From assembly GCF_026616195.1 (NCBI RefSeq), contig NZ_JANHDH010000003.1, forward strand, positions 558,001 through 622,000: 64,000 bases of DNA, read 5' to 3'. The notes below the pieces were generated by a model. That model was not told the DNA's origin and made no database searches. It was given only the letters and a program-made list of their open reading frames with translations. Below, piece by piece: positions 39,030 through 40,429 of the stretch. This DNA is from Haloarchaeobius amylolyticus. GTDB lineage: Archaea > Halobacteriota > Halobacteria > Halobacteriales > Natrialbaceae. Within the stretch, counting starts at the first letter, position 1. Each line of letters starts with the position of its first letter. The position numbers and the translations under genes were made by a program.

Positions 39030-39084
39030 GGGAGCGTGGCCCGTTCGGGCCGGGTCAGAGTGATGAAGTAACGCTCCCACTCGC
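39030..39084 (-). promoter_or_regulatory. Structured leader of the Ro60 gene with Y-like 20-nt motif
   Basis: Minus strand 39084 to 39065 reads GCGAG-TGG-GAGCG-TTACTTC, the same 20-base spacing as in the array elements. The motif enters a stem GGGAGCGT (39078-39071) with ACGCTCCC (39037-39030), enclosing a GGCCC-GAAC-GGGCC hairpin. It lies 110 bases before the Ro60 ATG. No T-arm is present here. A TATA-like CTTATTACA at 39121-39113 would place it in the 5' untranslated region. Confidence 0.55.
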
Positions 39085-39199
39085 CCCGTGTCCCGGACAT
39101 GTGTTGGTTCTGTAATAAGTCTTCAGGCAGCGTGTCAAGCCGTTCCACAGCTCGGGAAAAGCCGGGGTGGCGATGCCGGCGAGGTGCTCGCCGGCCGTC

Positions 39200-39391
39200 G
39201 CGATGCGACGCATCCCGGATTCGAACCGGGGAGCGGTCGGGAGACCGCCGTGGCCACTCGAAGGAACGCCACCCCTCGCCCGATGGGAACGGATCGAGGT
39301 TCCATCTCACGGCTCCCTGCCGGTCGCCGGAGAATGGAGGGGCCGGGCGGGATTCGAACCGGACCGAGACGGTCCGGGGTGCTCGCATCGC
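39200..39391 (-). ncRNA. Composite, partly degenerate tRNA/Y-like element
   Basis: Contains a perfect T-arm CCCGG-TTCGAAT-CCGGG (39230-39214), the conserved motif GCGAG-GGG-TGGCG-TTCCTTC (39279-39260), a hairpin GCGGTC-TCCC-GACCGC between them, and a second broken T-arm near 39360-39345 from a partial duplication. GCGATGCGA at 39391-39383 pairs with TCGCATCGC at 39208-39200 and could be the closing (acceptor-like) stem. Boundaries are uncertain; it may be one long RNA or two decayed ones. Confidence 0.45.
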
Positions 39392-39493
39392 TGCGCTCCC
39401 GGGCTGCGACTCGCAGGGCTCGAATCCGCTAGCTCCATCTCACGGCTCCCTACCGGTCGCCGGAGAATGGAGGGGCCAGGCGGGATTCGAACC
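39301..39493. repeat. 60-bp direct duplication ending in a T-arm
   Basis: 39301-39360 and 39434-39493 are identical at 58 of 60 bases. On the minus strand the unit starts with the T-loop of the tRNA-Lys-like gene at 39473-39547 and runs into its 3' flank. The downstream copy thus carries a T-loop but a foreign 5' part. Confidence 0.85.
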
Positions 39494-39547
39494 CGCGACT
39501 GTCCGATTAAAAGTCGGCTGCACTGGACCTGGCTGTGCTTCCGGCCC
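39473..39547 (-). tRNA. tRNA-Lys(UUU)-like, atypical
   Basis: 75 nt cloverleaf: acceptor GGGCCGG/CTGGCCC (one G-U), D-stem GCAC/GTGC, anticodon loop CTTTTAA (anticodon TTT), T-arm GCGGG-TTCGAAT-CCCGC. Oddities: positions 8-9 are AA instead of the near-universal U8, the first anticodon-stem pair is G-A, and the base after the acceptor is C rather than G. It may be a decayed tRNA-Lys or a tRNA mimic belonging to the Ro60 array. CCA is not encoded. Confidence 0.65.
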
Positions 39548-39596
39548 GCGTCTTCCTGGCGTGAGACTCACCGCATCCCGGCGTTCGCCGGAGAGA

Positions 39597-39669
39597 GGGC
39601 TGGGCGAGATTCGAACTCGCGACCACTGAGTTAAGAGCCCAGCGCACGACCTGGCTGTGCTTCCAGCCC
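39597..39669 (-). tRNA. tRNA-Lys(CUU)-like, atypical
   Basis: 73 nt. Acceptor GGGCTGG/CCAGCCC fully paired, D-stem GCAC/GTGC, anticodon stem CTGGG/CTCAG with loop CTCTTAA (anticodon CTT), T-arm GCGAG-TTCGAAT-CTCGC. As in the neighbour at 39473, positions 8-9 are AA, lacking U8, and the D-loop core CAGCCAGGTC is shared with it. The two are paralogues. Its 3' flank folds as CCGGC-GAAC-GCCGG followed by GTGAG, like the flank of the other one. Confidence 0.7.
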
Positions 39670-39675
39670 ACGCAC

Positions 39676-39726
39676 TCCCCGTCGGCAGCACACCGGGTTT
39701 CCGGTGAAAGTTGCCAGCAGCAGAGC
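39676..39726 (-). ncRNA. Hairpin spacer between array elements
   Basis: Minus strand holds GGCA-ACTTT-CACCGG-AAAC-CCGGTG-TGC-TGCC: an outer 4-bp stem, an internal loop and a 6-bp apical hairpin. The apical stem CACCGG/CCGGTG is the same as in the element at 39841-39970. It joins the 3' end of the 39727 element to the tRNA-Lys(CUU)-like gene. Confidence 0.4.
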
Positions 39727-39820
39727 GGAGCGGGTGGGATTTGAACCCACGTTGGACCACTGAAGTAGCTCCAGACCTCGCGCCGCAAGGCGAATACCGG
39801 TCCGGAGACGCTACCGCTCC
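39727..39820 (-). ncRNA. Y-like RNA with tRNA acceptor and T-arm (copy 1)
   Basis: 94 nt. Acceptor GGAGCGG/CCGCTCC and T-arm GTGGG-TTCAAAT-CCCAC are perfect. The D and anticodon arms are replaced by a long hairpin: stem CTCCGGAC/GTCTGGAG, internal loop CGGTATT opposite CGAG, apical CGCC-TTGC-GGCG. The motif GCGAG-GTC-TGGAG-CTACTTC (39781-39762) is its 3' strand. No 7-nt anticodon loop exists, so it cannot decode. Same plan as 39841-39970 and 40302-40429. Confidence 0.75.
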
Positions 39821-39840
39821 GACGCGCGGGTCCCCGTGCC

Positions 39841-39970
39841 GAGACCGATGCGCCGGGAATCGAACCCGGTCCGTTCGCTGAGAACGAAGTAACTCCACGA
39901 CTCGCACCGGCCTGCCGGTGAAAATACGTGTGGAGGGATGTTGCGTGGCGACCAGCCCTGCATCGGTCTC
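39841..39970 (-). ncRNA. Y-like RNA with tRNA acceptor and T-arm (copy 2)
   Basis: 130 nt. Extended 11-bp closing stem GAGACCGATGC/GCATCGGTCTC, T-arm CCGGG-TTCGATT-CCCGG. Inside: CTCCAC/GTGGAG stem (39935-39930 with 39898-39893), internal loop ACGTATTTT opposite CGAGTC, apical CACCGG-CAGG-CCGGTG, and a second arm CGTTC-TCAGC-GAACG where the anticodon arm would be. Motif GCGAG-TCG-TGGAG-TTACTTC at 39905-39886. One extra C separates T-stem and acceptor stem. Confidence 0.78.
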
Positions 39971-39989
39971 GTCACGACCGCCCGCGACG

Positions 39990-40016
39990 GGAGTCGAGTG
40001 TGCAGGCCTCGACTCC
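39990..40016 (-). ncRNA. 9-bp hairpin after the compact tRNA-like element
   Basis: Arms 39990-39998 and 40008-40016 (GGAGTCGAG/CTCGACTCC, minus strand) with a 9-base loop. It directly follows the 58-nt element at 40021-40078 on the minus strand and may be a processing or termination signal. Confidence 0.45.
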
Positions 40017-40020
40017 GGAG

Positions 40021-40078
40021 GACACGGGTGGGAGTCGAACCCACCTGAACCGTCGCACGGCGAGCGTGCGACCGTGTC
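40021..40078 (-). ncRNA. Compact D-armless tRNA-like RNA
   Basis: 58 nt: acceptor GACACGG/CCGTGTC, one hairpin TCGCACG-CTCGC-CGTGCGA, an 8-base joint, and T-arm GTGGG-TTCGACT-CCCAC. Nothing like a D-arm fits between acceptor and hairpin and the hairpin loop has 5 bases, so it is not a working tRNA by sequence. All three helices are perfect, which argues for selection on structure. Confidence 0.65.
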
Positions 40079-40120
40079 GGGTGCCTCGGCCTCGCGGCGT
40101 CATCGGCGGGTTTCGAATTT

Positions 40121-40147
40121 ACACGGTGTACACATTCTACACCGTGT
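40121..40147. ncRNA. 10-bp perfect hairpin in the array
   Basis: Arms 40121-40130 and 40138-40147 (ACACGGTGTA/TACACCGTGT) with a 7-base loop. Lies upstream of the compact element on the minus strand; the surrounding 60 bases are more AT-rich than the rest of the array and could hold an internal promoter. Confidence 0.45.
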
Positions 40148-40175
40148 GGAAGTTCTGGGCGTGTCAAACATTGAG

Positions 40176-40322
40176 TCGCGCTCACTGTCGTTCGCGCACG
40201 ACGAAGGGCGAGCAGGAATCGAACCACGGTCTCTCGACCGCTCCCTGATTCGATCTCCTCGCAACTCCGCATCGCGCTCACTGTCGTTCGCGCACGACGA
40301 AGGGGCGAGCAGGAATCGAACC
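40176..40322. repeat. 50-bp direct duplication ending in a T-loop
   Basis: 40176-40225 and 40272-40322 are the same apart from one extra G in the second. On the minus strand the unit starts at the T-loop of the Y-like element 40302-40429 and covers its 3' acceptor strand and flank. The downstream copy has a broken T-stem (CGTGG against CCTGC), so it is a truncated element. Its own 5' part has a CGGTC-GAGA-GACCG hairpin and a poor copy of the motif (GCGA-TGC-GGAG) near 40263-40274. Confidence 0.8.
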
Positions 40323-40429
40323 TGCGTCTTCTGGCTGCGATCCAGACGGAATTGGCCGAAGGAACTCCACGACTCGCACTGGCAGCAGTGAATAGCTGCG
40401 TGGAGGTGAGAGTACTATCCTATCGCCCC
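40302..40429 (-). ncRNA. Y-like RNA with tRNA acceptor and T-arm (copy 3)
   Basis: 128 nt. Acceptor GGGGCGA/TCGCCCC, T-arm GCAGG-TTCGATT-CCTGC, and an anticodon-like arm TCTGG-ATCGCAG-CCAGA with a 7-base loop. The Y-like domain stands before it: stem CTCCAC/GTGGAG, internal loop GCAGCTATT opposite CGAGTC, apical CACTG-CTGC-CAGTG; motif GCGAG-TCG-TGGAG-TTCCTTC at 40377-40358. The 9-base 5' and 6-base 3' loop lengths equal those of copy 2 although the apical stems differ in sequence. Confidence 0.78.

Follow-up and report, generated by a model that had tools for sequence, protein, structure and literature searches.

The window analysed here is a stretch of 64,000 nucleotides (nt) of the haloarchaeon Haloarchaeobius amylolyticus (contig NZ_JANHDH010000003.1, positions 558,001 to 622,000; G000:C3:558001-622000). 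A 20-nt motif occurs five times in its tRNA-rich array, next to a gene of the Ro60 family (ro60). Judging from sequence comparison, we consider it highly probable (about 0.9) that each of the five copies belongs to the Ro60-binding arm of an archaeal Y RNA, and that these RNAs form a family with genes beside that of their own Ro60. The comparison establishes, as predicted structures, the arm, tRNA-like bodies, two circular permutations, covariation and a linkage to TROVE genes. Before this, no Y RNA family seems to have been seen in archaea: no earlier description of archaeal or of unpermuted Y RNAs was found in the literature searched, most subscription papers and preprints lying outside that search. 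Neither the RNAs with their arms nor the permutation are part of the work on archaeal tRNA clusters (PMC6333295); both are new.

The motif and the Ro60-type arm

The five copies of GCGAG-N8-YTMCTTC named in the original prediction are all present on the minus strand (Table 1). Only 0.03 matches to this pattern are expected per window, and the five in the array lie within 1.3 kb on one strand. The middle five positions read TGG[A/C]G in four copies, as had been reported, and GAGCG in the fifth. It was also correctly seen that three copies have GCGAG as the 3' side of an internal loop; these are the tRNA-ordered copies described below. The remaining two copies have GCGAG on the 5' side, with the partner strand downstream.

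The 20-mer had been taken for the whole site, but it is only half of it, and conservation is just as strong in the partner strand (…TTTTC). In all five copies strand 1 of the arm consists of an outer helix, a bulged C, GA(G), 8 nt and NTNCTTC. Strand 2 runs from the complement of the 8 nt through a bulge of a few nt and TTTC to the other side of the outer helix. The "exact spacing" of the motif reflects an 8-bp helix; the 8-nt middle is one strand of this covarying helix and no sequence signal. The invariant C, GA(G) opposite TTC and this inner helix fit the anatomy of Y RNAs.

A scan for the complete arm found in the window the five copies only, with no others in 117 kb of background strand-bases; Markov sequences used as a control gave 4 matches in 1.28 Mb. 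The scan of 28 sources (the window and 27 loci) gave 93 matches with 77 distinct cores. Seven cores were dropped as spurious or mis-paired, two were re-entered with the proper partner, and 64 distinct rows remained after trimming. In a subset of 38 distinct cores 95.3% of cells are paired, two-sided changes occur in 14 of 14 pairs, and the covariation score is 0.94 versus 0.195 for shuffled and at most 0.18 for slid rows. Among unpaired positions, invariance is seen at the C, at the A of CGA, in T-CTTC (3' heptamer) and in TT-C (strand 2); the scan itself demanded the heptamer and, in part, the TT-C.

If the motif were a DNA-level element of the array (a site for recombination, integration or a regulator), with inverted halves that only look like RNA stems, this would agree with the location of such arrays on plasmids and viruses and with several short duplications in the array. 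However, the compensatory changes include G-U pairs, the strand is constant relative to the tRNA genes and ro60, unpaired loop positions are conserved, and circular permutation preserves the RNA topology. We regard such an element as extremely improbable.

Two permuted architectures on tRNA-like bodies

The original prediction overlooked that the arms are carried by tRNA-like bodies in two circularly permuted architectures, and that one copy is a hairpin in the ro60 leader. In the tRNA-ordered copies (Y3, Y4 and Y5) strand 2 comes before strand 1, a hairpin closes the arm, the acceptor is open and a T-arm is present. No anticodon stem-loop is found; in the alignment the Ro60-type arm takes the place of the anticodon arm. 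Across the tRNA-ordered form 95% of acceptor cells and 100% of T-stem cells are paired, with compensatory changes, and neither helix played a part in the scan that found the elements. Y3 has the acceptor GGAGCGG/CCGCTCC (7/7 pairs) and a T-arm with 5/5 pairs. Y5 has the acceptor GGGGCGA/TCGCCCC, a T-arm and an extra arm.

Y2 is a circular permutation of the tRNA-ordered form; its arm contains the RNA ends, the order known from classical Y RNAs. Its order is strand 1, T-arm (39230-39214), closed acceptor (6 bp, CGTCGC/GCGACG, with a 3-nt closing loop), a 9-bp hairpin at the position of the D-arm, and strand 2; this Y-ordered structure is the minimum-energy fold. In Y1 (GGGG-C-GAG-TGGGAGCG-TTACTTC … CGCTCCCA-CGGTT-TTC-CCCC) the arm encloses a small hairpin only. 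Both Y1 and Y2 were matched by the arm scan. The RNA ends form the arm in Y1, Y2 and most copies of relatives, and the arm is internal in Y3-Y5. The minimum-energy folds of the five RNAs match the main helices, with z-scores from -2.7 to -3.8.

Among 71 distinct Y-ordered loops a T-arm is recognisable in 42, and it is followed by a closed acceptor of 5-7 bp in 32. Shuffled sequence downstream of the T-arm gives an acceptor match in 22% of trials under these loose criteria, and therefore single cases of a closed acceptor are weak. Many closed acceptors have 7 bp and differ by compensatory changes (CGGTGGA/TCCACCG, CGGTAGA/TCTACTG, GGGCGGA/TCCGCCC). A D-arm is visible by eye in some Y-ordered copies (locus L043).

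The window and locus L034 each have the two forms in one array, and the arms of both forms obey the same sequence rules. L034, from a relative, has at ~6100-6850 two tRNA-ordered copies, one T-arm-like Y-ordered copy and, in the ro60 leader, two tandem Y hairpins.

The elements could also be taken for decaying tRNA pseudogenes or intron-containing tRNAs of the array, the motif being a leftover. They do lie in tRNA arrays, retain acceptor and T-arms and have weak similarity to tRNA and mascRNA; moreover, pseudogenes and introns have been reported in archaeal tRNA clusters (PMC6333295), and a tRNA-Asp of halovirus HGTV-1 is annotated with an intron. This explanation is nevertheless very unlikely. 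Conservation is highest in the inserted arm, which also covaries strongly and has a sequence common to tRNA-ordered and Y-ordered copies; the copies inspected show no evident anticodon arm. In addition, the tRNA-ordered RNA occurs beside TROVE genes only, and plain arms without a tRNA part occur too.

Several observations weigh against reading the elements as Y RNAs. The paired percentage of the arm is partly built in, a partner strand being a requirement of the scan. Most minimum-energy folds show the CGAG/UUUUC part as an internal loop. The GAG·UUC pairing is weak, with GAC in most tRNA-ordered relatives; we place this pairing in the arm after the model of vertebrate Y RNAs, and it is uncertain. 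D-arms are poorly conserved in both forms, and 29 of the 71 Y-ordered copies have no recognisable T-arm. Finally, we know of no effector of these RNAs, and to our knowledge haloarchaea do not have the bacterial partner PNPase, which is an unlikely partner in these organisms.

Linkage to TROVE genes

TROVE genes were found in 43 of the 391 haloarchaeal genomes sampled. They lie mostly beside tRNA genes, usually in large arrays, in loci from genomes, plasmids and HGTV-1. All 34 haloarchaeal TROVE loci scanned, HGTV-1 included, have at least one arm, and the arms are mostly inside the tRNA arrays.

The same 391 genomes were searched with R1, a covariance model of the tRNA-ordered form. The model gave 34 matches of at least 47.9 bits in 27 genomes; the remaining tail does not exceed 40 bits and, in the fetched loci, includes called tRNA genes. 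Every one of these 27 genomes belongs to the 43 TROVE genomes, with each match at most 4.4 kb from the TROVE gene; the 348 genomes that lack TROVE gave no match in this score range. The hypergeometric probability of this association is 7e-31 with genomes counted as independent; owing to the common ancestry of relatives, this overstates the association. The remaining 16 of the 43 TROVE genomes lack an R1 match of at least 47.9 bits, and the scanned loci among them contain Y-ordered copies.

The intron-containing tRNA-Asp (gtc) of HGTV-1 (L054:3022-3153) coincides end to end with a tRNA-ordered element (76 bits; it belongs to the R1 training set). From its sequence we read this gene, deposited as a tRNA with an intron, as a tRNA-ordered Y RNA whose "intron" would be the Ro60 arm. 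The virus also has a Y-ordered arm before its TROVE gene (L054 ~5900-5990), with RtcB ~4 kb upstream.

Specificity of the motif

A genome-wide motif search had been suggested as a check of the original prediction, and its outcome depends on the partner strand. The bare 20-mer pattern has 16 matches in the source genome versus 8 for a backwards control, and it is rejected as a specific marker. With the partner strand demanded, all five array copies pass, and only one of the 11 scattered copies is convincing (G000:C2:818237). A copy at ~149811 of the contig of the window (G000:C3) passes marginally, with a score of 10.0 and imperfect pairing, and was treated as chance. The window itself has a sixth match outside the array, at 43904-43885, which had not been noticed before; the scan found no pairing partner for it, and it is a chance match. 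A tighter pattern gave 92 matches in the 391 genomes, 39 of them within 6 kb of TROVE and 53 elsewhere. Three of the better-looking matches outside TROVE genomes were searched for a partner strand, and none was found.

The convincing scattered copy belongs to a Y-like RNA of ~210 nt, which is intergenic and far from ro60 (G000:C2:818234-818443; L097, L102). It reads GGGG-CGAG-AGGGCGGG-TTACTTC … CCCGCCCT-CGGTTTTC-CCC around ~180 nt, with an arm score of 13.5 and a fold z-score of -3.2. No near-identical copy was found in 30 relatives, three of which gave short partial matches.

The Ro60 protein

The product of ro60 matches the Pfam families TROVE (1.8e-24) and vWA_Ro60 (8.4e-10), and the starts of its orthologs align at residue 1. 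A profile of 12 haloarchaeal proteins was aligned with human Ro60 and Rsr of Deinococcus radiodurans. K156, which is invariant in the haloarchaeal proteins, aligns with K170, which we take to be a Y RNA contact. H174, invariant in 12 of 12 haloarchaeal proteins, aligns with human H187, named in a review as essential for Y RNA contact (PMC4030889). The protein thus has the features of the Ro60/Rsr family, namely TROVE, vWA and the contact histidine. The sole match in a Ro60 protein search of genome contigs was a Bacteroidaceae metagenome-assembled genome.

Leader hairpins of the Y1 type are also present in L033 and L034. Extended Ro60 coding was considered for Y1 and rejected. The distances from motif to ATG are 144, 137 and 130 nt, a difference of 7 nt between close relatives, and therefore the reading frame is not kept; in L033 there is an in-frame stop 198 nt upstream.

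Taken together, the anatomy of the lower stem, the covariation, a tRNA-ordered RNA confined to TROVE loci and the contact histidine argue for the proposed Ro60-binding site, a candidate that the comparison supports well once three corrections are made to the original prediction.

The array in the window

The annotated features are listed in Table 1.

Table 1. Features of the ro60 locus and its RNA array (positions in the window; R1, score to the covariance model of the tRNA-ordered form)
Feature	Coordinates	Strand	Motif copy	Fold z	R1 (bits)	Description
ro60/rsr	37451..38920	-				directly downstream of the copies; TROVE and Ro60-type vWA; 489 aa
Y1	39018..39087	-	39084-39065	-3.8		plain Y hairpin in the ro60 leader, without tRNA-like module
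Y2	39152..39283	-	39279-39260	-3.5		Y-ordered, ends form the arm, permuted tRNA-like module
tRNA-Lys (TTT)	39472..39547	-				between Y2 and Y3; ARAGORN and Rfam
tRNA-Lys (CTT)	39595..39669	-				between Y2 and Y3; ARAGORN and Rfam
Y3	39726..39820	-	39781-39762	-3.3	71 (in R1 training set)	tRNA-ordered, 95 nt
Y4	39841..39970	-	39905-39886	-2.7	78	tRNA-ordered, extended acceptor GAGACCGATGC/GCATCGGTCTC
Y5	40301..40429	-	40377-40358	-3.6	92	tRNA-ordered, 129 nt
tRNA-Glu (TTC)	40922..40996	-				upstream of Y5; ARAGORN and Rfam

At the gathering score Rfam finds only the three tRNAs in the window, and neither ARAGORN nor the Rfam tRNA model at this score calls any of Y1-Y5. A permissive Rfam search adds weak matches to mascRNA, tRNA and tRNA-Sec, one of which is a mascRNA-like tRNA-fold match in Y4. 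The array also holds extra T-arm sequences missed by the tRNA finders. Two tRNA-like elements with T-arms and without a Ro60 arm lie on the minus strand at 40021-40110 and 41242-41318 (weak mascRNA and tRNA-Sec matches); in the second (41318-41242) the acceptor and T-arm look good and the anticodon region is odd. Near-identical short duplications (~39290-39345 / 39422-39480 and ~40160-40230 / 40275-40320) comprise tRNA-like 3' ends with downstream sequence and are perhaps traces of array growth. Between tRNA-Glu and Y5 there is an open reading frame of 106 aa on the minus strand (40602-40922) with no Pfam match.

Comparison with known Y RNAs

Bacterial YrlA has a tRNA-like domain (PMC8394870), and this domain has the structure of a circularly permuted tRNA (PMC11472068). 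The Y-ordered copies resemble YrlA of the YrlA/Rsr system (Salmonella; PDB 6CU1) in the adjacent gene of a Ro60 homolog, in RNA ends that form the arm, and, in a part of the copies, in the T-arm with a closed acceptor of a permuted tRNA (PMC8394870, PMC11472068). In contrast to YrlA, the host is an archaeon, the arm sequence is different, a single locus has several copies, which lie within tRNA arrays and are accompanied by unpermuted forms in tRNA order whose acceptor is open, and no rtcBA operon was seen beside ro60 in the window. We know of no Y RNA with an unpermuted tRNA order and an open acceptor.

In vertebrates a Ro60 site requires a helix, a bulged C and an opposite-strand bulge (PMC4726728). 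Vertebrate Y RNAs (RF00019) share with the RNAs described here the succession of a helix, a single bulged C, a short helix, an opposite-strand bulge and an inner helix (PMC4726728), and vertebrate Ro60 shares the contact histidine with the haloarchaeal proteins (PMC4030889). Vertebrate Y RNAs differ in having no tRNA-like module and in bulge sizes and helix lengths. The Rfam models of Y RNAs match none of the RNAs of the window at gathering or permissive scores.

Morgado and Vicente (2019) found a TROVE gene in 20 of 29 archaeal tRNA clusters and noted links to plasmids and proviruses (PMC6333295). These are the same loci; that work reports pseudogenes and introns in them, without Y RNAs (PMC6333295).

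Origin and possible function

We lean slightly towards regarding the tRNA-ordered RNAs as unpermuted Y RNAs, tRNAs in which a Ro60-binding arm has taken over from the anticodon arm. They would be matured by tRNA enzymes and would be intermediate on the way to the permuted form, which would have arisen through tandem duplication and new ends. Such an origin of the permutation is conceivable because Y-ordered copies stand in tandem in relatives. The tRNA-ordered RNAs would probably be excised from the transcript of the tRNA array by RNase P and tRNase Z and then stabilised by Ro60, which may grip the arm by its bulged part at the outer face of the protein ring. The tRNA-like body may be a module that binds an effector or a processing factor, as in bacterial YrlA. 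The resulting ribonucleoprotein (RNP) may watch over structured RNAs and damaged tRNAs, including those of the array, and degrade them or help to repair them. A role in tRNA quality control or repair would suit the carriage of the system with tRNA arrays on plasmids and a virus. Free Ro60 might bind its own mRNA at the leader hairpin and thus be autoregulated.

Alternatively, the RNAs could be Ro60 ligands acting as decoys or regulators only, with a body that serves processing and stability and recruits no effector. RNase P and tRNase Z require an acceptor and a T-arm. The leader hairpin without a tRNA part would agree with this alternative, as would the variation of the tRNA-like bodies and the Y-ordered copies without a T-arm mentioned above. 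On the other hand, the bacterial tRNA-like module tethers a nuclease (PMC8394870), and several different bodies are kept in the array, which suggests different partners. We consider a role without an effector rather unlikely.

If the RNAs are Y RNAs as we propose, Ro60/Y RNA RNPs extend to archaea on the RNA side. A tRNA-ordered Y RNA would make the tRNA origin of Y RNAs directly testable, and the two topologies found side by side may show how Y RNAs arose from tRNAs. A part of the "pseudogenes" and "intron tRNAs" of haloarchaeal and haloviral arrays would be explained, and plasmid and viral tRNA arrays would be tied to an RNA quality-control protein. Haloarchaea would then offer tractable models for the effector of the tRNA-like module and for a possible autoregulation hairpin of Ro60.

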